A stretch of 40,822 bases of DNA from Aromatoleum diolicum (lineage in GTDB: Bacteria; Pseudomonadota; Gammaproteobacteria; Burkholderiales; Rhodocyclaceae), in assembly GCF_012910955.1 (NCBI RefSeq), contig NZ_WTVQ01000046.1, forward strand, positions 1 through 40,822. Direction: 5' to 3'. Shown in pieces: positions 30,940 through 39,716 of this stretch (its first letter is position 1; every line of letters begins with the position of its first letter). Position numbers and translations under genes: made by a program. Under the pieces are notes generated by a model. The model ran no database searches. It saw only the letters and a program-made list of their open reading frames with translations, and had not been told where the DNA came from.

Positions 30940-31227
30940 TCAGTGCGCGCTATCGCCGCGAGATTCATACGCCGACGGGCTCACACCTGCGTGGGCGAGA
31001 TACTCGCGCAGCTGCTTGATGTCCTGCTTCGAACACTCGCTGCCGTGATGCGGGTAGTGCAGAAACCCTTCCACCTTGTTGAGCACTATCCGGAAACGCG
31101 CTCCATGCGCGGGCTCGATGGTCGCGCCGAGGTGTAGCAGCAAGGACTCGATCTCACGCCAGTGGATGTTCGCGCTGATCGGGTCCTGGAAGATCGTGCG
31201 CAGCAGATTGATGTGCTTGTGGCTCAT
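30940..31227 (-). CDS. Solitary HicA-like (dsRBD-fold) protein
   Basis: A 95-residue protein with the HicA pattern: LLRTIFQDPISANIHWREIESLLLHLGA, then strands and a His-rich segment, FLHYPHHGSE, ending in DIKQLREYLAHAGV. HicA toxins are mRNA interferases with a catalytic His and a dsRNA-binding-like fold; here several histidines (H57, H60, H61) could take that place. No HicB antitoxin lies on either side: the next genes are MaoC (272 bp downstream) and hyfI (102 bp upstream). GAGAGG precedes the ATG. It may be domesticated rather than toxic. The HicA assignment is moderately sure; toxicity is not shown. Confidence 0.7.
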   Translation of the reverse strand: MSHKHINLLRTIFQDPISANIHWREIESLLLHLGATIEPAHGARFRIVLNKVEGFLHYPHHGSECSKQDIKQLREYLAHAGVSPSAYESRGDSAH

Positions 31228-31329
31228 GATGGAAGCCCTCTCTTGAATGATCGATACTGCGACCCGGCGCGCCACGATTGGCCGCACTACGCAGGTTAAC
31301 AACCCGGTCGGAAACCCAACTTTTCCTTT

Positions 31330-31875
31330 TCAATTAGACTCCGCATCGGCAGAAATGTCATCCGGATGACTTGTGCAAACGGCCGCGAGAATTCCACGCA
31401 GGATGTCGATTGGCGGTGGCGGACAACCGGGAACGGCGACATCCACCGGGATGACGTTGGATACCCTGCCGCAACTGGCGTAGCTTTCGCCGAAAATCCC
31501 GCCGGTGCAGCCGCAGTCACCGACAGCGACCACCAGTTTCGGTGCCGGCGTCGCATCATAGGTGCGCCTCAGTGCGATCTCCATGTGCCGCGATACGGGC
31601 CCGGTCACCAGCAACATGTCAGCGTGACGCGGGCTGGCGACGAACTTGATGCCCAGCCCCTCGATGTTGTAGTAGGGATTGTTCAGGGCGTTGATTTCGA
31701 GTTCGCAGCCGTTGCAGGAGCCGGCGTCCACCTCGCGAATCGCCAGCGCACGTCCGAGGATGGCAAGGATTTCCGCGTGAATCTGCTGGGCGTCGGTTCG
31801 CCACTCCAACGCGGGCTGCGGCTTCGGTTCGGTGACGATGCCGGTACGCGCAATTCTCTTGAGCACTTGCCACAT
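31330..31875 (-). CDS. hyfI: HyfI/HycG-like small subunit (NuoB family)
   Basis: A 181-residue [4Fe-4S] subunit homologous to NuoB and to the small subunit of group 4 hydrogenases. The four cluster cysteines are kept: C54 and C57 in GSCNGCE, C121 in GDCGCTGG and C151 in VPGCPPPP. So the terminal (N2-type) iron-sulfur centre should form. It is the last gene of the minus-strand operon, its ATG overlapping the hyfG stop by one base (TGATG). Its partner large subunit lacks the [NiFe] ligands, so this cluster cannot pass electrons to a hydrogenase centre; the terminal acceptor is unknown. hyfI is used for homology only. Confidence 0.9.
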   Translation of the reverse strand: MWQVLKRIARTGIVTEPKPQPALEWRTDAQQIHAEILAILGRALAIREVDAGSCNGCELEINALNNPYYNIEGLGIKFVASPRHADMLLVTGPVSRHMEIALRRTYDATPAPKLVVAVGDCGCTGGIFGESYASCGRVSNVIPVDVAVPGCPPPPIDILRGILAAVCTSHPDDISADAESN

Positions 31876-33419
31876 CACAGATCCTGTCCTGCGTAACTGA
31901 GATTGAAGGATTTGTTGATCAGCGGAAAGTCGGCAACGATGTTGCCGATCACCGCGTGCTCCAGTACCGGCCAGTTCTGCCAGGACGGATCGTGGCAGTG
32001 GCATCGGGAAATTGCACCCACTGCATCCGTCTCCAGCGCCACCAAGACCTCTCCGCGCCAGCCCTCTACCCAGCCGGCACCTTTCGTGTTCGCCGGGGCA
32101 ACCGTCGGTGCGTGGATCGGTCCATGCGGCAGTTCGTCGAGCAACGCATCGCTAAGGCGGAGCGATTCGAACAGCTCGGCGAAACGGATATTCACGCGCG
32201 CCGCAACATCGCCGTTCTGCTGGCTGCATGGCTTAAACCTGATGTGGCCGTAAGGCGCCCATCCAAAATCGGCACGCAGGTCCGCCACACCCCCGCTCGC
32301 ACGTGCGGCCAGACCGGTGAGGCCGAGCTTCCGTGCGAGGTCCGGCGTGATGCGCCCGGTGGTGACGAGACGATCCTGCAGGCCGGCGTGCTCATCGAAG
32401 ATGGACTGCAACTCGCTGACCGCGGAAATCATGACCGCGGTTTGTTCGCGCAGCATCTGGCGCGCATCGCGCGGCGGGTCGCTGACGACGCCACCGGGGC
32501 GGATCTGGTCCATCAACAGTCGATGGCCGAAACACTTCGCATTCACCCGCAGCCAGTCTTCGCGCAGGCGCGAGAACTGCGCAAGCGCCATGCCGAATGC
32601 TGCATCGTTGCCGAGTGCGCCGAGATCACCCAGATGATTGGCGATGCGCTCGCGCTCGAGCAGCAGTGCGCGCAACCAGCATGCCCGCTCCGGCACCTGG
32701 GCCGCCGACAGCGACTCGACCGCCATCGCGTAGGCCCACGCATAGGCTACCGTGCTGTCGCCCGACACCCGTCCCGCCAGCCGCGCGCCCTCATCGACCG
32801 TCATGCCGACAAAACGTCGCTCGATACCCTTGTGCTTGTAGCCGAGGCGCTGCTCGAGTCGCAGCACCTTCTCGCCAACGACGGAGAAGCGGAAGTGGCC
32901 CGGTTCGATGATGCCGGCGTGCACCGGACCGACCGGAATCTCATGCACCCCGTCGCCTTCGACACGCACGAAAGCGTAATCGGCGGCGGCAGGATCGAAG
33001 CGCTCTTGACCCGTGTTTTCATTACGCAGCGGAAAATAGTCTTCCGGCCAGGCATCGTGGCGCAGCCAGGGGCGATCATCGCCGCTGCCGTCGGCGACGA
33101 AGCCGACGAGGTCGCGCGCCGCCCGCTGCATGCGGTTCGCGGCGGGAAACAGGTGCGCGATGTCCGGATAACGTGGTTGCACCGTATCGAGTGCGAGGTA
33201 CGCCCACAGCAGCCCGTCAGCGCAGCGGTAGGCAGCCGACACTTCAAATCCGCCTCCCGCGGCACGATGGTCAGCCCCCCACAGGCTCACCAGCTGGCCA
33301 TGTATTTCAACGACGGAGCGTGCCAAATCCTGCCACTGTACGGCGTCCACCCGCGCACGAAAGATGGGAAGGGGCGCATCCAGACGTGCGAATTCGCAAT
33401 CGATTCCGAAAAAGCGCAT
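31875..33419 (-). CDS. hyfG: HyfG/HycE-like large subunit lacking the [NiFe] ligands
   Basis: A 514-residue fusion of a NuoC-like domain (about 1-150) and a NuoD/hydrogenase large-subunit domain. Hydrogenases of group 4 have CGIC in the N-terminal motif and DPCxxC near the end. Here the matching positions read RVSGDSTVAYAW (217-228) and DPSWQN (477-482), so all four cysteines are replaced. The rest of the fold is conserved (GYKHKGIERR, RVNIRFAELFESL). It is therefore not a hydrogenase but resembles the Ehr-type (energy-converting-hydrogenase-related) subunits, such as the M. tuberculosis Rv0087 family. A GGAGG site precedes the ATG. A quinone-like cavity, as in NuoD, is one possibility. Confidence 0.88.
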   Translation of the reverse strand: MRFFGIDCEFARLDAPLPIFRARVDAVQWQDLARSVVEIHGQLVSLWGADHRAAGGGFEVSAAYRCADGLLWAYLALDTVQPRYPDIAHLFPAANRMQRAARDLVGFVADGSGDDRPWLRHDAWPEDYFPLRNENTGQERFDPAAADYAFVRVEGDGVHEIPVGPVHAGIIEPGHFRFSVVGEKVLRLEQRLGYKHKGIERRFVGMTVDEGARLAGRVSGDSTVAYAWAYAMAVESLSAAQVPERACWLRALLLERERIANHLGDLGALGNDAAFGMALAQFSRLREDWLRVNAKCFGHRLLMDQIRPGGVVSDPPRDARQMLREQTAVMISAVSELQSIFDEHAGLQDRLVTTGRITPDLARKLGLTGLAARASGGVADLRADFGWAPYGHIRFKPCSQQNGDVAARVNIRFAELFESLRLSDALLDELPHGPIHAPTVAPANTKGAGWVEGWRGEVLVALETDAVGAISRCHCHDPSWQNWPVLEHAVIGNIVADFPLINKSFNLSYAGQDL

Positions 33420-33420
33420 G

Positions 33421-34878
33421 TCAGCCTCCTGCGATCATCCTGGCGGCCTGCACGTACCAGTCGTTTAGATAGGGCGGAATGTAAAGCCCGAGCATCAGGC
33501 CCAGACCGAGATGGATGAACACCGGCAGCAGAGCCGGCGGATGTGCGAGTGGCCGCATCGACGTCTCGCCAAACACCATCGGTTGCACCCGGCTGAAGAT
33601 GGCCGCAAATGCCACACCCAGCGCAACCAGGAGAAATGGCGTAGCCCACGGAACCTCGCGCATGGCGGTCGTCAGGATGAGGAACTCGCTCGCAAACACG
33701 CCGAACGGCGGCATGCCGAGAATCGCCAGCGAGCCGAGCATCAACCCCCAGCCCACGGTGGGACTCACCTTGAGCAAGCCACGGATATCGTCCATCAACT
33801 GCGAGCCCGCCTTCTGGGCCGCATGGCCGACGGCAAAAAAAATCGCCGACTTGATCAGCGCATGGACGGTCATGTGCAACAAACCAGCGAAATTGGCGAC
33901 CGGCCCGCCGATGCCGAACGCGAAAGTCATCAGCCCCATGTGTTCGATCGACGAATACGCGAACATGCGCTTCACGTCGCGCTGGCGCGACAGGAAGAAG
34001 GCCGCGGTGACCACCGTGATGAGGCCGAAGCCGATCATCATCTGCCCGGGAAGACCGTTCTGCAGCGATCCGTCTGCCAGCACCTTGCAACGCAACACGG
34101 CATACAGCGCAACGTTCAGCAACAGGCCGGAGAGTACCGCCGAAATCGGCGTCGGCCCTTCCGCATGAGCATCCGGGAGCCAGTTGTGCACCGGCACGAG
34201 TCCCACCTTGGTACCGTAACCGAGGAGCAGGAAGACAAACGCCAGCGACAGGATGCCCGGATCGAGCAGGTGCTTGGCGGCGGCCAGATGGGTCCACAGC
34301 AGCGCGCTGTCGCCGCCACCGATGGCCCGTTCCGCCGCCATGTACAGCAGGATCGTGCCGAACAGCGCCTGCGCGATACCGACGCCGCACAGAATGAAGT
34401 ACTTCCACGCCGCCTCGAGGCTTGCGGCGGTACGATAGACCGACACCAACAGCACGGTGGTCAAAGTCGCCGCCTCCATCGCGACCCACAGAATGCCGAG
34501 GTTGTTGGTGGTCAGGGCCACCAGCATCATGCCGTTGAACAGCTGGTACATGCTGTGAAACAGCCGCATGCGTCCTGGCGTCATCTTGCCGTGATCGCGT
34601 TCGACACGCATGTAGGGGCGCGAGAACAGGGAGGTCGTGAAGCCGACAAAAGCGGTCAGCGTCACCAGAAAGACGTTGAGCGCATCCACGAAAAACCATT
34701 CACCCCAGACCAGCAGCGGGCCGTCACGGATGATGTCGGAAGTCAGCCAGCCAGCGGCCAGCAGTGTCAGCAGGCTCACGGCGGCATTGAGATCCTGGCC
34801 CACCGGCCTGTCGCCCCAGATCGCCAGCAGCAGGCCTCCGACCAAGGGAATCGTGAGGACCAGCAGAAGGGCTTCCAT
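33421..34878 (-). CDS. hyfF: HyfF-like antiporter subunit (NuoM/N family)
   Basis: A 485-residue inner-membrane protein of about 13-14 helices in the Mrp/NuoLMN proton-antiporter family. The charged residues needed for pumping are present: E135 in WVAMEAATL, K224 in GYGTKVGLVPVHNWLPDAH and H231. Its likely role is proton (or sodium) translocation in the membrane arm of the complex. It is 1-2 bases from hyfE and hyfG, so it is in one operon. Length is a little under E. coli HyfF (about 526). Confidence 0.92.
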   Translation of the reverse strand: MEALLLVLTIPLVGGLLLAIWGDRPVGQDLNAAVSLLTLLAAGWLTSDIIRDGPLLVWGEWFFVDALNVFLVTLTAFVGFTTSLFSRPYMRVERDHGKMTPGRMRLFHSMYQLFNGMMLVALTTNNLGILWVAMEAATLTTVLLVSVYRTAASLEAAWKYFILCGVGIAQALFGTILLYMAAERAIGGGDSALLWTHLAAAKHLLDPGILSLAFVFLLLGYGTKVGLVPVHNWLPDAHAEGPTPISAVLSGLLLNVALYAVLRCKVLADGSLQNGLPGQMMIGFGLITVVTAAFFLSRQRDVKRMFAYSSIEHMGLMTFAFGIGGPVANFAGLLHMTVHALIKSAIFFAVGHAAQKAGSQLMDDIRGLLKVSPTVGWGLMLGSLAILGMPPFGVFASEFLILTTAMREVPWATPFLLVALGVAFAAIFSRVQPMVFGETSMRPLAHPPALLPVFIHLGLGLMLGLYIPPYLNDWYVQAARMIAGG

Positions 34879-34880
34879 GT

Positions 34881-35540
34881 CTATTCGTCCTTGAGTTTTT
34901 CGAGGTGTCGAATGTCCAGGCTATCGAACTGCTCGCGGATCTGGAACATGAACACACCAAGAATCAGGATGCCGACGAGCACGTCGAATGCGATGCCCAG
35001 TTCGACGATCATCGGCATGCCGCTGGTCGCAGCGGTAGCGGCGAAGAACAGCCCATTTTCCATCGATAGGAAACCGATCACCTGCGGCACGGCCTTGGCA
35101 CGGACGATCATCATCAGGAAGGACAGCAGCACGCAGGCGAGCGCGATACCGAGCGTCCCGTGCGCAATCGAGGCTGACAGGCTCGCGATCGGCGCTGCCA
35201 GGTTGAAGGCGAAGATCACCAGCACAATGCCGATCAGCATCGTCGTCGGGATGTTAAACAGGGTCTCGACGTCCCAGCGCACGTTGAGCCGCTGGATCAC
35301 CCGATGCAACAGGATGGGAATCAGGACCACCTTGAGCACGAAGGTGATCACCGCCGAGTAATACAGGTGATGCTGTCCGGTCAGATACGCCACTACCAAC
35401 GTCGCTGCGACGAGCGATGCCCCTTGCAGCGTGAACAGGTGGATCAGGGTCAGGATGCGCCGCTGCGCGATCATCGCGAAAGCCAGCACAAGCAGGACCG
35501 CAGCGAAAAGGTTGATGCTCTGGGCGAGTAGCGCTTCCAT
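34881..35540 (-). CDS. hyfE: HyfE-like membrane subunit
   Basis: A 219-residue integral membrane protein with about seven helices, similar in size and pattern to hydrogenase-4 HyfE; the last part is NuoK-like, with ENGLFFAA. It is a small subunit of the membrane arm, probably bridging the antiporter subunits and the HyfC helices. I chose the ATG at 35540 because it follows the hyfC stop by one base and gives the standard MEALLAQSINLFAAVLL opening. The gene belongs to the minus-strand operon. Confidence 0.88.
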   Translation of the reverse strand: MEALLAQSINLFAAVLLVLAFAMIAQRRILTLIHLFTLQGASLVAATLVVAYLTGQHHLYYSAVITFVLKVVLIPILLHRVIQRLNVRWDVETLFNIPTTMLIGIVLVIFAFNLAAPIASLSASIAHGTLGIALACVLLSFLMMIVRAKAVPQVIGFLSMENGLFFAATAATSGMPMIVELGIAFDVLVGILILGVFMFQIREQFDSLDIRHLEKLKDE

Positions 35541-35541
35541 G

Positions 35542-36489
35542 TCAGGCTCCGAGCAGCACATGTACCAATAGTGCGATCACCGCCAGCAGGAAGGCCGTGG
35601 CGAGAAACTCCGGCACACGGAACAGCCGCATCTTGGCGTTGATCGTCTCGATCAGTGCCAGCAGCATTCCCCCGACCGCCAGTTTGGCGACGAGCACGGG
35701 CACCGCCAGGATCATCACGAGCGGGGTGTCGGCGTTCGCAATGCCCCATGGGAAGAACAGGGCCAGCCCGATGCATGAGTAGGCGAAGAGTTTGAGCGAC
35801 GCCGCCCACTCGATCAGCGCGAGGTGCCGACCCGAGTATTCGAGGATCAGCGCCTCGTGGATCATCGTCAATTCGAGGTGCGTGGCCGGGTTGTCGACGG
35901 GAATGCGGGCGTTCTCGGCGAGCGACACGAATGTGAATGCGACACCCGCCACCGCCAGACTGGGATAGATCGCGAACGGCGCGTGTGCGAGCGACTCGAC
36001 AATGTTCGCCAGCGATGTCGACTGGGTGATCAGCGATGCCGAAAACAGCACCATCAGCAAGGCCGGCTCGGCGAGGAAACCGACCAGCATTTCCCGGCGC
36101 GCACCGAGCGTGCCGAACGAGGTGCCGATATCCATTGCCGCGAGCGAGATGAACACCCGCGCCAGTGCGAACAGGCCTACCAGGGCAATGGCGTCCGCCG
36201 CCGGTGCGAGCGGCAGGTCGGTCGACAGCGTCGGCGCAATGCCGCACACCAGCGCCATGCACGCAAAAACGATATAGGGCGCGATGCGAAAGATGGGCGA
36301 TGCGGTTTCGGCCACCACCGAATCCTTGTTGAACAGCTTGTGCAGCAGCCGGTATGGCTGCAGCAATCCCGGCGCACTGCGATTCTGCAGCCACGCCCGC
36401 CACTGATTCACCCAGCCCGTAAGCAGCGGAGCAAACGCCAGAGCCAGGACGATTTCGAGCAACTGCGAGACAAGGCCGGAAAACGTCAT
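35542..36489 (-). CDS. hyfC: HyfC/HycD-like membrane subunit (NuoH family)
   Basis: A 315-residue NuoH-family protein with eight expected helices, exactly the length of HyfC. It carries the NuoH loop block AENARIPVDNPATHLELTMIHEALILEYSG, rich in acidic residues that link the peripheral arm (HyfG/HyfI) to the proton path. The ATG at 36489 overlaps the hyfB stop (ATGA). It anchors the soluble subunits to the membrane arm. No odd features. Confidence 0.92.
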   Translation of the reverse strand: MTFSGLVSQLLEIVLALAFAPLLTGWVNQWRAWLQNRSAPGLLQPYRLLHKLFNKDSVVAETASPIFRIAPYIVFACMALVCGIAPTLSTDLPLAPAADAIALVGLFALARVFISLAAMDIGTSFGTLGARREMLVGFLAEPALLMVLFSASLITQSTSLANIVESLAHAPFAIYPSLAVAGVAFTFVSLAENARIPVDNPATHLELTMIHEALILEYSGRHLALIEWAASLKLFAYSCIGLALFFPWGIANADTPLVMILAVPVLVAKLAVGGMLLALIETINAKMRLFRVPEFLATAFLLAVIALLVHVLLGA

Positions 36490-38486
36490 GATTTGACCAC
36501 CAACAACAGGACGATCAGGGTCACGAAGCTGTACAGCAGGTAGATGGCGATACGCCCCTGCTGCAAGCGCCCCACCACGCGCGCGAAAAGCTCGGTTGCA
36601 TGCGCGATGGGCAGATACAGCCAGTGCCAGAAATGATCTTCGATGATCACCTTGTAGACCGGCTTGTCGTCGAAAGGCGAAGGGAGTTCTCGCTGCATGC
36701 GGAACACCGGCTCGAAGATCTGACGAATCGGCTGCCCGAAGCCTTCGGCCGTATCCTGCATGCGTGCGGTCTGCGCAGGAAAACCGCAATCCCACGGTGG
36801 AGCAAAGCGCAGTCGCCCATGGTAGAACCGACGCACGAGCCATATCGACAGCAATACCGCGACACAGACAACGACAAGGAAGATGACGGGACTGTAGCTC
36901 GCCCGATCGAGCGCAGTCGGCGCCAACAGGATCCAGCCGTTGCGACGCACCGTGTCGGCGATTCCCGCACCGATCAGCAAATGCGTCACGCGGTCTATTA
37001 CCGTGATGATCGGCACCGGGAACAGGCCCAGCAAGACACAGCCTGACGCCAGCCAGACAAGGCCGGCGCGTTCGAGGCGCGAAGCATCGCGCGCCTCGGC
37101 GAGTTTCGGCTCACGCGGCTGCCCGAGAAAGATGACGCCGAAGAATTTCACCATCGCATAACCGGCCAGTGCCGCCACCAGGGCGATCGCAGCGGCGATG
37201 ACCGGGATCAGCATGTTGAGGAAGGTGTCCGGAAGCTCGGTGGTGAACAGGAAGCTCTGCAACAGCAACCACTCTGCGACGAAACCCGACAGCGGCGGAA
37301 GACCCGAACTGGCGAGGACTCCGACCAGCACCAGCCAGCCCACCCACGGCATGCGACGCATCAACCCGCCGAGCTTGCCGAGGCTGCGCTCGCCGGTGGC
37401 GTGCAGCACGGACCCGGTGCCAAGGAATAGCAGACTCTTGAAGAATGCATGACTGATCACGTGATATAGCGCCGCCGTCAGCGCCAGCGCCGACAGGGAG
37501 TCCATGCCATAAGCCTTGAACAGCACGCCGAGCCCGATACCGACAAACAGCAGCCCGATATTTTCAATCGATGAATAGGCCAGCAGCCGCTTCATGTCGG
37601 TCTGAACCGCACTGAAAGTCACCCCGAACAGCGCCGTGATCAGGCCAAGCGAAAGTAGCAATACGCCCCACCACCAGATCTGCACTGACAGCAGATCGAA
37701 CCCGACGCGCAGCACGCCGTAAATCGCCGTCTTGAGCATCACGCCGCTCATCAGCGCCGAAACCGGCGAAGGCGCCGCGGGGTGTGCCTCCGGCAACCAG
37801 ACGTGAAGCGGCACGATGCCTGCCTTGGCGCCGAAGCCGAAAGTCGCGAGCAGGAAGGCGGCCGAGGCCCACAGCGGGGACAAAGACTGCGCGCGCATGT
37901 TGGCGAAGGTGTAGTCGCCGGTATTGGCCTGCAGCACACCGAAGCACAACAGGATGGCAATCGCGCCGACGTGCGCGACCAGCAGGTAGAGGAACCCCGC
38001 CTGGCGGATCGACGGCACGCGATGGTTGGCGGTGACGAGAAAGAAGGACGACAGCGCCATCGTTTCCCACATCACCATGAAGGCATAGGCATCGTCCGCC
38101 AGCAGCACCATCGCCATGCTGGCGAGGAAGACGTGGTATTCGAGGCACAGCAGGCCGGGCGGCGTTCCTTCTCCGTGGCGAAAATAGCCTGCGGCAAAAA
38201 TCGAGATGCCCGCCCCCGCCGCGCCGATTACGAGCAGGAAGAACGCCGACAGACCATCCAGACGCAGATGGAACGGCAGATCCGGCAAACCCACTACCAG
38301 CACGGCTGTCTCGGGCACGTCGAACAGTGCGGCGAGCGCGACTGCGGCAAGCGCGATGGCCACCGCGCCGCCGGCCGGAAACAGAACTCGGGCGACGAAC
38401 GCCGTATTGCGCAAGACCAGGAGCCCGATCAGGCCCAGGCCAAGCCAGGCGCCGACGAGCACCAGAATCCAGTCGAGATGCAACAC
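36486..38486 (-). CDS. hyfB: HyfB-like antiporter subunit (NuoL family)
   Basis: A 666-residue inner-membrane protein, the length of HyfB (about 672), with a long C-terminal part beyond the antiporter core ending in a membrane helix at about 645-664. Pumping residues are in place: E141 in VMWETMALSS, K221 in FGFGAKAGIVPLHVW and H228. The start is GTG at 38486 after an AGGGGGA site. It follows the spermidine-synthase-like gene by 21 bases and shares its transcript. Together with HyfF it provides ion translocation for the complex. Confidence 0.92.
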   Translation of the reverse strand: MLHLDWILVLVGAWLGLGLIGLLVLRNTAFVARVLFPAGGAVAIALAAVALAALFDVPETAVLVVGLPDLPFHLRLDGLSAFFLLVIGAAGAGISIFAAGYFRHGEGTPPGLLCLEYHVFLASMAMVLLADDAYAFMVMWETMALSSFFLVTANHRVPSIRQAGFLYLLVAHVGAIAILLCFGVLQANTGDYTFANMRAQSLSPLWASAAFLLATFGFGAKAGIVPLHVWLPEAHPAAPSPVSALMSGVMLKTAIYGVLRVGFDLLSVQIWWWGVLLLSLGLITALFGVTFSAVQTDMKRLLAYSSIENIGLLFVGIGLGVLFKAYGMDSLSALALTAALYHVISHAFFKSLLFLGTGSVLHATGERSLGKLGGLMRRMPWVGWLVLVGVLASSGLPPLSGFVAEWLLLQSFLFTTELPDTFLNMLIPVIAAAIALVAALAGYAMVKFFGVIFLGQPREPKLAEARDASRLERAGLVWLASGCVLLGLFPVPIITVIDRVTHLLIGAGIADTVRRNGWILLAPTALDRASYSPVIFLVVVCVAVLLSIWLVRRFYHGRLRFAPPWDCGFPAQTARMQDTAEGFGQPIRQIFEPVFRMQRELPSPFDDKPVYKVIIEDHFWHWLYLPIAHATELFARVVGRLQQGRIAIYLLYSFVTLIVLLLVVKS

Positions 38487-38507: not shown

Positions 38508-39344
38508 TCAGTACGTGCTGGAGCGGTTGCGGCCCCCGTGCCAGAGATCCGGCTGAAGCTGTCTGCGCCGCTCCAACCGGTGCTGGATGCGCTGTGCTGT
38601 CGACATTATCCCGATCGGGTGTCCGGATGCGAGCATTCGCGCACGGTCGAACAACTGCGACCGAGCCGGCGGGAAAATCTTGCCCTTGTATGCAAAAACG
38701 ATCCGGTTGCTGTCTTTTTCGGCGCGGACTGCGACGACGCGATCGTCAAAACTCTCCCGGATGCGTGACGCATACAGTCCGTAGCGGCGATCGCCAGACC
38801 ACAGATTGACCGCCATGATGCCGCCTTCGGCGAGCATTGAATGGCAATCGTCGTAAAAACCCGCCGAACAGAGTTTCGCGGGCTGGCCAGTGTGATCGAA
38901 CCCGTCAATCAGAAGCACGTCCGGCGCATGCGACCGATCCCGCACGTAATCCGCGCCATCCCCGCACACCACGCAAAACCGCTCATCGTCCGGCGGAATG
39001 CCGAAGGTCTCACGCAATGCGATCACCTCGGGGCTGATCTCGACGGACGTGAAACGCGTCTCGGGCAAGGTGCGCAGGCAGTACTTCGCGATCGACCCGC
39101 CACCCAGCCCGATCATCACGATGTCGCGCGGTTCGGGATTGAACAGCAGGAAACCCATCATTGAACGCGTGTAGTCGATCGCCAGCGCGTCCGGCTCGTC
39201 GAGACACATCTGGCTCTGTATCGTCAGGGCCTCGAAATGCAGCGTACGCATTCCGTCGGCATCGACAACATAGGGGCGCCCGTCACCGCGATGGGACAGG
39301 GCTGCGCCGCAGTATCTCAGCAATGCGAGTTGGTCCATGTTCAT
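38508..39344 (-). CDS. Spermidine-synthase-like protein leading the hyf operon
   Basis: A 278-residue Rossmann-fold protein of the polyamine aminopropyltransferase family. The nucleotide loop GGGSI (81-85), E102 in SVEISPEVI, D129 in GDGADYV and the catalytic pair D147/D150 (LLIDGFDHTG) are visible. The canonical loop is GGGDG; the Asp that helps hold the aminopropyl donor is Ser here, so donor or acceptor may differ. The start reads MNMDQL; the N-terminal beta-domain is short. It has no speD nearby and is 21 bases upstream of hyfB. It may be a methyl or aminopropyl transferase tied to the complex; specificity is not known. Confidence 0.8.
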   Translation of the reverse strand: MNMDQLALLRYCGAALSHRGDGRPYVVDADGMRTLHFEALTIQSQMCLDEPDALAIDYTRSMMGFLLFNPEPRDIVMIGLGGGSIAKYCLRTLPETRFTSVEISPEVIALRETFGIPPDDERFCVVCGDGADYVRDRSHAPDVLLIDGFDHTGQPAKLCSAGFYDDCHSMLAEGGIMAVNLWSGDRRYGLYASRIRESFDDRVVAVRAEKDSNRIVFAYKGKIFPPARSQLFDRARMLASGHPIGIMSTAQRIQHRLERRRQLQPDLWHGGRNRSSTY

Positions 39345-39400: not shown

Positions 39401-39518
39401 GGCGCCGACATAGTCTGATGTGTCGACGCCGATCGTGGCGCGTAATTTTCATTGCGTGATAACAGCGTACACATTACGCTACGCAATGAAGCATCTTCAA
39501 TGTTAATTTGATGTTAAT
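39401..39518. promoter_or_regulatory. Structured control region between the RHH gene and the hyf operon
   Basis: Three structured elements lie in the 186-bp divergent gap. First, GGCGCCGACA (39401-39410) and TGTCGACGCC (39421-39430), an inverted repeat with one mismatch. Second, a nested dyad: outer ATTGCGT (39451-39457)/ACGCAAT (39481-39487), inner AGCGTA (39464-39469)/TACGCT (39475-39480). Third, a direct repeat ATGTTAAT at 39500-39507 and 39511-39518, an 11-bp period. RHH regulators bind such repeats. The bias to A+T fits a promoter region, but I cannot fix the -35 and -10 on either strand. Confidence 0.55.
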
Positions 39519-39530
39519 CCGAGTACCCGT

Positions 39531-39716
39531 ATGCAGGAAAACAGAACCGCGCGCCTGACTCTCCTGATCGATCCCGTGAAGAAGAAGATCTTCGAGGATA
39601 TCTGCGCAAGTCAGGACCTCACGTCATCCCAAGTCGTGCGCCGACTGATACGCGAGTACATCCAGCAAAATGCGGGCGGACGGGATTTGCCCGAGTGGCT
39701 GAAGGGATCCAACTGA
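39531..39716 (+). CDS. Ribbon-helix-helix (CopG-like) regulator
   Basis: A 61-residue protein with a beta strand (ARLTLLIDPVKKKIFEDI) then two helices, FEDICASQ and SSQVVRRLIREYIQQ, the ribbon-helix-helix DNA-binding fold. Such proteins act as dimers, often as repressors of their own gene or as antitoxins. No toxin gene of the usual kind follows; the next gene is 200 bp on. It diverges from the spermidine-synthase-like/hyf operon, across a region full of repeats that could be its sites. That control is inferred. Confidence 0.78.
   Translation: MQENRTARLTLLIDPVKKKIFEDICASQDLTSSQVVRRLIREYIQQNAGGRDLPEWLKGSN

Follow-up and report, generated by a model that had tools for sequence, protein, structure and literature searches.

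A six-subunit hydrogenase-related membrane complex of Aromatoleum diolicum with a replaced [NiFe] site and a possible link to ferredoxin

The hyf-like locus

The 40,822-bp stretch of Aromatoleum diolicum DNA analyzed here (the window, contig C87 of a 5.1-Mb genome, G000) encodes a six-subunit membrane complex of the energy-converting-hydrogenase-related (Ehr) kind. Its genes lie on the minus strand from 38486 to 31330 in the order hyfB-C-E-F-G-I, overlapping or near-touching, with a speE-like gene ahead of them. The large subunit, HyfG, has lost the four cysteines of a [NiFe] site; the former metal site appears to have been rebuilt rather than to have decayed, and within the window's family the complex co-occurs with pyruvate:ferredoxin oxidoreductase (PFOR), which may point to ferredoxin as its electron donor. 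The six genes are as follows.

36486 to 38486, minus strand: hyfB, NuoL-like antiporter-like proton-pumping subunit, 666 residues (NF005086, 931 bits, over the cut-off)
35542 to 36489, minus strand: hyfC, NuoH/HycD-like membrane anchor with charged E-channel residues, 315 residues (PF00146, E 7.9e-35)
34881 to 35561, minus strand: hyfE, small membrane subunit (NF008556, 90 bits, under the cut-off of 136)
33421 to 34878, minus strand: hyfF, antiporter-like proton-pumping subunit, 485 residues (NF005045, 894 bits, over the cut-off)
31875 to 33419, minus strand: hyfG, large subunit with a 30-kDa-like and a 49-kDa-like domain, [NiFe] cysteines replaced
31330 to 31875, minus strand: hyfI, small subunit with one N2-type [4Fe-4S] site, 181 residues from the ATG at 31875 (PF01058, E 6.2e-31)

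A sequence-only reading of the window had placed all six genes correctly and called the set complete. That is so for B, C, E, F, G, and I, but relative to E. coli Hyf the set has no HyfH (the two-cluster wire), HyfA, or HyfD, and the speE-like gene and a gene for a ribbon-helix-helix (RHH) protein had been missed. The order B-C-E-F-G-I is found in 102 of 114 operon loci, some of them from one genome; the other 12 were taken from the same automatic picking of open reading frames (ORFs). HyfH-like ORFs are present in only 4 of 147 Ehr loci, the window locus not among them, and NuoE, NuoF, NuoG, and NuoI in 0, 1, 1, and 2 of the 147, with none among the proteins scanned around the window operon. 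The closest named relatives of HyfG come from Pseudomonas benzenivorans, Aromatoleum, and Azoarcus records (73-77%), and Ehr loci also turned up in rhizobia and Rhodococcus. In a 57-row tree, 54 Ehr rows form a single clade (support 100/100) apart from E. coli HycE and HyfG, the only hydrogenases included.

Some loci stand out on other grounds. Four betaproteobacterial-like Ehr loci (L019, L044, L094, and L098) carry the labels Pseudomonas benzenivorans, Sphingobacteriaceae, and Actinomycetes, which may reflect transfer, mis-binning, or label error. On a Methylovirgula plasmid the Ehr operon has as its neighbor a separate set of F-type ATP synthase genes that starts with the beta subunit (L132:1477-8039).

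The former [NiFe] site of HyfG

HyfG matches E. coli HycE beyond chance (E 1.1e-64). Its RVSGDST aligns with the RVCGICG of HycE, placing SGDS (219-222) in the CGIC columns, and HycE DPCYSC aligns with NLSYAG at the extreme C terminus of HyfG, where SYAG is 508-511. The four [NiFe] cysteine columns therefore read S219, S222, S508, and G511, and alignment with HycE, put forward earlier as the check that could overturn the claimed cysteine loss, finds no cysteine at any of them. One of the two motifs cited for that loss had been misassigned: RVSGDST does lie opposite CGIC, but DPSWQN does not lie opposite DPCxxC, whose true counterpart is the C-terminal SYAG. DPSWQN instead corresponds to RAATYANWP in HycE, EPTFPN in MbhL, and the DPSF motif in complex I.

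Homologues were compared as 153 rows, some of them from several loci of one genome, of which 117 were left at <80% identity. A CxxC pair at either site is absent from all 153 Ehr HyfG homologues scored, and a lone cysteine occurs at column 219 in 2 of the 117. Two rows outside the 153 (L135 and L160, with SAD for SGD) keep the Asp and likewise lack the cysteines. Asp221, Lys503, and Gly511 are invariant in all 153 homologues. All 117 share Gly220, Asp221, Arg455, Ser479, and Gly511; Glu172, Asp477, and Tyr509 are each found in 116, Asn506 in 113, Ser508 in 111, Ser219 in 108, and Ser222 in 101; Val460 (80), Tyr226 (77), and Val458 (72) are less fixed. Beyond the published shell list, Lys503 (117/117) and Asn502 (116/117) are also held. 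Glu172 aligns with Glu21L, described in PMC11228991 as the proton donor of Mbh. The same source supplied 20 positions in the first and second shells around the Mbh [NiFe] center; these were mapped through the alignment of HyfG with HycE, MbhL, and complex I. Their mean top-residue frequency is 0.90, compared with 0.63 over 504 columns, and none of 20,000 random sets scored as high.

Every one of the 68 loci that have all six subunits shows HyfG as the least conserved, yet its pocket is fixed; as far as the alignments allow us to judge, the site that once held the metal has been rebuilt and has not decayed. Core columns are conserved anyway, and the conserved pocket would thus count against decay without proving catalysis. 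The GD and NKSF..SY.G signatures are kept in Rhodococcus, an actinobacterium, and in a second set from Variovorax. That second set (locus L133) has a HyfI with an N-terminal two-cluster ferredoxin domain, a HyfH-HyfI fusion, and its HyfG is also without the cysteines; Variovorax is one of the four loci with a HyfH-like match, the match being this HyfI. A second, divergent Ehr HyfG shares a locus with the first in L133:1-5461 and in L093.

HyfG ends 3 residues past the SYxG column in all 153 homologues, whereas HycE continues 35 past it, that is, 32 further. In a second alignment the aligned range stops at HyfG model position 514 and HycE position 537. HyfG has no C-terminal maturation peptide and stops at the point where mature HycE does. 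A cryptic [NiFe] hydrogenase, or ligation of the cofactor in some other way, could draw on the retention of the hydrogenase-pocket residues Glu172 and Arg455, but the window HyfG lacks cysteine at all four positions and the maturation peptide is absent; two genomes (G052 and G059) moreover carry Ehr with no match to HypD, although the window genome has one. We regard this explanation as highly improbable.

The cluster and the membrane arm

The four HyfI cysteines reported earlier (C54, C57, C121, and C151) are invariant in 136 of 136 homologues. The Glu, Lys, and His residues of the pump, also noted in that reading, are kept: HyfB E141, K221, K299, H346, and E405 are invariant across 104 homologues, and HyfF E135, K224, K303, H339, and E398 are at least 99% conserved across 146. 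In HyfC, E141, E192, D199, E206, E212, E217, and E281 are invariant among 119 homologues, as are HyfE K70 and E161 (numbered from MEALLAQS) among 100. Because the HyfI cysteines and the charged pump and E-channel residues are kept, one cluster and a full pump are under selection, without HyfH.

These data bear on a reading in which the complex is a redox-silent ion channel or antiporter, with HyfG and HyfI as structural remnants. The loss of every [NiFe] cysteine, the absence of the electron-input subunit from the locus, and the low overall conservation of HyfG would suit such a complex; the invariance of the HyfI cluster cysteines, a rebuilt pocket far more conserved than the remainder of HyfG, and the PFOR co-occurrence described below would not, and we consider it distinctly unlikely. 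The proposal that the complex is an ion pump not driven by hydrogen chemistry is supported by intact pump residues and cluster ligands beside a large subunit whose cysteines and maturation peptide are gone, and by the lack of a HypD match in G052 and G059.

Quinone-site columns

The sequence-only reading had suggested looking for a quinone-type cavity. We aligned HyfG with Nqo4 of complex I, taking Tyr87 to be a quinone ligand and Asp139 to be the matching Asp. With a constant offset of 133 in the alignment block, the Nqo4 His38 column is Ile171 (99%), beside Glu172, the Tyr87 column is Gly220 (117 of 117), and the Asp139 column is Asp272. The cited part of PMC11228991 equates Mbh Glu21L, the Glu172 column, in position with Nqo4 His38. 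His196 was considered as the His38 column and ruled out, since both the offset and that source put His38 at 171/172.

Because both Nqo4 ligand columns are replaced, a classical quinone site is not supported, and the suggested cavity is not favored. The idea of a stripped-down complex I, with HyfG passing electrons from an unspecified donor to quinone at the classical site, must also contend with Asp272 having an equivalent in MbhL, a hydrogenase, and with the HycD-type residues of HyfC (R111, D120, E133, E192, and E281) at positions where NuoH differs. Such a quinone reductase strikes us as unlikely, if the strongest of the alternatives. Being polar and charged, the pocket would accommodate another metal or a small, polar substrate more readily than the head of a quinone.

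Genome co-occurrence

We compared 61 genomes of the window's family, 22 of which are Ehr carriers (HyfG at E <1e-150) and 39 are not; 19 of the carriers also show the motifs, and G001, G008, and G055 count as carriers by their HyfG match only. HypD (20/22 carriers, 28/39 others) shows no association with Ehr. Formate and CO had been named as possible growth links. For formate dehydrogenase (FDH), Fdh-alpha (E 1e-150) is present in 16 of 22 carriers, against 30 of the 39 genomes without Ehr (Fisher p 0.76); for CO dehydrogenase, CoxL is present in 2 of 22 and 1 of 39, again with no association. By the cut-offs applied, HypD, Fdh-alpha, and CoxL are all missing from two Ehr carriers, G052 (100% complete) and G059 (99%). 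A formate-hydrogenlyase-like or CO-linked complex, fed by FDH or CO dehydrogenase, can call on published passages that report higher levels of Geobacter Ehr subunits on formate than when hydrogen was present (PMC7894505) and that propose FDH-Ehr complexes in Riflemargulisbacteria and Saganbacteria (PMC6349859). However, neither FDH nor CoxL tracks Ehr in the family, two carriers have neither, and no FDH family is among the 25 commonest neighbor families listed, upstream or downstream; none of the ten proteins scanned around the window operon is an FDH partner, the window genome holding FDH-alpha elsewhere. This explanation is weakened by the co-occurrence data, the two links are not favored, and we rate it as improbable.

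RnfC as a whole is uninformative (22/22 carriers, 34/39 others). A subclass of near full-length RnfC matches scoring 460-490 bits is present in 13 of 22 carriers versus 2 of 39 others (Fisher 5e-6); it was set after the scores had been seen and leaves out the N-terminally partial matches of G005 and G060, with which the counts become 13/22 versus 4/39 (p 8e-5). In 12 of the 15 subclass genomes, all carriers, a long PFOR-type gene (~1645 residues) adjoins rnfC, with further rnf genes in several. Each of the 12 genomes that have the long PFOR type (>=69% identity) carries its gene next to rnfC. Clusters of rnf with long PFOR include L237, L240, L244 (2667-7604), L245, and L247.

Single-chain PFOR as a whole is found in 20 of 22 Ehr carriers versus 2 of 39 others (Fisher 8e-12). 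Among the carriers the PFOR is of the long type in 12, canonical in 5, and of a divergent long form bearing POR-type Pfam domains in 3; both of the others are canonical. Restricting the comparison to the 55 genomes at least 90% complete gives 19/20 versus 2/35. On a complex I tree of 58 tips (G012, G014, and G034, which have no NuoD match and are Ehr-negative and PFOR-negative, were left out), a Pagel test gives a likelihood ratio of 45.3 (p 3e-9), and in simulation the observed overlap of 20 compares with a null of 8.7 +/- 2.0 (0 of 5000). G007, with a C-terminal match only, was counted as PFOR-negative; if positive, the others become 3/39 and the Fisher value 6e-11. The PFOR-Ehr p-value withstands correction for the number of families and subclasses tried, about seven in total. 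The redox partner, left open in the sequence-only reading, is thereby narrowed towards ferredoxin, although the window genome itself is an exception.

A possible mechanism

We tentatively favor, ahead of any single alternative, a non-hydrogenase proton pump of the six-subunit Ehr type that would be driven by ferredoxin, or would run in reverse on the proton motive force. Low-potential ferredoxin would dock directly on HyfI, at the place that HyfH takes in a hydrogenase, and pass electrons to the single [4Fe-4S] cluster of HyfI. From there they would reduce a non-proton acceptor in the polar HyfG pocket, lined by Ser219-Gly220-Asp221-Ser222, Asn502-Lys503, Ser508-Tyr509-x-Gly511, Glu172, and Arg455. 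Chemistry in the pocket would then shift charge along the E-channel of HyfC to HyfB and HyfF, where protons would be pumped, and in the opposite direction the proton motive force would drive ferredoxin reduction. The ferredoxin donor is suggested by the co-occurrence of PFOR with Ehr; it, the docking on HyfI, the acceptor in the pocket, and the translocation of protons are the parts that we infer. A more specific version is less likely than not: that a new hard-ligand site (Ser/Asp/Ser, Asn-Lys, and Ser-Tyr-x-Gly) has replaced [NiFe] and perhaps holds a metal or polar substrate, in a ferredoxin-driven pump with one [4Fe-4S] wire that is paired with PFOR in the window's family.

Several points weigh against a ferredoxin-driven pump. 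The window genome and G004 (84% complete) are carriers with no PFOR match at E 1e-40; as at most eight candidates per genome were scored (8 of 10 in G000 and 8 of 9 in G004), these negatives are non-exhaustive, as are those of G007, G009, G011, G018, and G033, a total of 7 of the 39 PFOR-negative genomes. Where PFOR matches exist, those of G001 and G050 have an in-frame stop and those of G025 and G043 are split over contigs. PFOR and Ehr are never neighbors, lying on different contigs or >300 kb apart in 20 of 20 genomes. The link is post hoc: it came by way of the RnfC subclass once other families had been tried, and it was drawn in one bacterial family, with the Ehr carriers among Rhizobium, Rhodococcus, and M. 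tuberculosis lying outside it; a shared anaerobic lifestyle may account for it and is the main alternative. Without HyfH, a docking surface for ferredoxin on HyfI is hypothetical. Part of the pocket falls in regions where the AlphaFold predicted local distance difference test score is <50 (residues 147-197 and 509-514).

Candidate regulator and neighboring genes

Three further features lie upstream of hyfB.

38508 to 39344, minus strand: SpeE-like (polyamine aminopropyltransferase-like) gene (PF01564, E 1.2e-7)
39500 to 39518, plus strand: tandem ATGTTAAT-TTG-ATGTTAAT, putative operator, lying between the RHH gene and speE-hyf
39531 to 39716, plus strand: RHH_9 ribbon-helix-helix protein, 61 residues, divergent from the operon (PF19839, E 2.4e-31)

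The SpeE-like protein scores 255 bits against NF003380, under the cut-off of 304. Its gene lies 22 bp from hyfB on the same strand and is probably the first gene of the hyf operon; SpeE-like genes are found near hyfB in 12 of 114 operon loci. In 32 of the 114, an RHH match sits upstream of hyfB at a distance of no more than 1.5 kb, as against 6 matches elsewhere in 2.25 Mb of loci, one of which (L097) is just past the 1.5-kb limit. The tandem site is the sole match (up to 2 mismatches) in the window genome and in its congener G044, and a reversed-pattern control gave 0 in both. Of these 32 loci, 16 have the word ATGTTAA/TTAACAT ahead of the RHH gene, where 0.1 would be expected (both-strand count halved). 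Judging from these patterns, the RHH protein is probably a regulator dedicated to the speE-hyf locus. No inverted form of the operator was found in either genome. A 10-bp inverted repeat is present in the RHH-speE intergenic region.

Other regulators were considered. FNR/Anr control was rejected, sites (up to 2 mismatches) being present in 19 of 109 upstream regions and 41 of 327 control windows, with no clear enrichment; the counts are 7/109 versus 18/327 for CRP-like sites and 40/109 versus 134/327 for sigma-54 sites. An XRE-type helix-turn-helix (HTH) gene is joined to hyfB in 12 loci, the two named ones being alphaproteobacterial. A link to universal stress proteins or low-oxygen loci was suggested by three annotated plasmid loci and set aside, a universal stress protein being present in only 5 of 147 loci. 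Term searches of PMC9104464 and PMC3759415 gave no match for hydrogenase, hyf, or NADH-quinone, and of PMC11841059 none for hydrogenase, formate, hyf, or Ehr.

Neighbors were tallied by Pfam for 143 of 212 upstream and 132 of 214 downstream ORFs, which were chosen by length and are in some cases possibly spurious; a few downstream ends were reset to annotated genes. Upstream families with at least 3 members are ScpA (11), HTH families, spermine synthase (5), and cupin (5), with sulfate permease, DUF1275, tRNA synthetase, and metallophosphatase at 3 each. Downstream they are the antiporter family (4), DUF1275 (4), and spermine synthase (4), and the redox families FMN_dh, DAO, Pyr_redox_2, and Fer4 have 2 members each. 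By ORF clustering and these tallies no conserved redox gene was found next door, no redox family reaching 3 members except tandem Ehr antiporter subunits. Just downstream of hyfI, a 120-residue protein (30940-31302, minus strand) has a sub-threshold HicA-toxin-like match (PF07927, 23.4 bits, cut-off 27).

Relation to known systems

The window set has the features of Ehr, namely a large subunit without either CxxC, intact N2-type HyfI ligands, antiporter-like subunits, and a NuoH-like anchor, and the earlier assignment stands. From descriptions, it resembles other Ehr, M. tuberculosis Rv0082-Rv0087, and Geobacter GSU0739-45 in having a group-4-like large subunit without CxxC; the M. tuberculosis set we take, as the sequence-only reading did, to be an Ehr. 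The window order is B-C-E-F-G-I with RHH_9 and SpeE-like neighbors, while a Rhodococcus plasmid set runs I-B-C-E-F-G, like the Rv numbering. In the part of PMC6901956 drawn on, Rv0082-Rv0087 is termed a putative [NiFe]-hydrogenase and its genes are placed under the hypoxia factor rv0081.

Compared with E. coli hydrogenase-4 and formate hydrogenlyase (Hyf and Hyc; Protein Data Bank entry 7z0s), group 4 [NiFe] hydrogenases, the window lacks the four cysteines, the C-terminal maturation peptide, HyfH/HycF, HyfA, and HyfD in the locus, and an FDH neighbor. No FDH partner emerges at the locus or by co-occurrence, although an unlinked partner is possible. The complex is like respiratory complex I (NuoCD, Nqo4) in its fold, the DPS motif, the Asp at the Asp139 column, and the E-channel and antiporter residues, but its locus is without NuoEFG and NuoI and has Ile and Gly in the His38 and Tyr87 columns. 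Pyrococcus Mbh, which is fed by ferredoxin, and Mbx belong to the same superfamily, and the Mbh Glu21L column is kept as Glu172. Mbx is likewise described as ferredoxin-fed (PMC6349859), and its subunit MbxL (6u8y_L) is among the matches of HyfG. Unlike HyfG, MbhL keeps its cysteines (PMC11228991).

In the cited passages, Ehr without CxxC is reported in comammox Nitrospira, with its function called unknown (PMC10284858), and in ammonia oxidizers, with its advantage called unknown (PMC10432482); in lineages sibling to Cyanobacteria the complexes are suspected charge translocators with a proposed FDH link (PMC6349859), and a Geobacter Ehr was more abundant in a coculture (PMC8691401). No published Ehr-PFOR link was found among the matches listed.

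Significance

Ehr is an already known kind of complex; what is new here is the rebuilt pocket, a likely dedicated regulator and its site, and the ferredoxin lead. Ehr is widespread (nitrifiers, Geobacter, rhizobia, and Rhodococcus), with no proven function in the literature cited, and the PFOR co-occurrence, corrected for phylogeny, offers a concrete candidate for its electron donor. The invariant Asp221 and Lys503 are exact residues for mutation. If the more specific version with a hard-ligand site is true, it would be a new kind of reaction within the complex I superfamily. An Ehr that pumps protons on a single cluster, without a catalytic metal, would reveal the minimum needs of a complex-I-type machine, and could account for the way in which some facultative anaerobes gain energy from ferredoxin.

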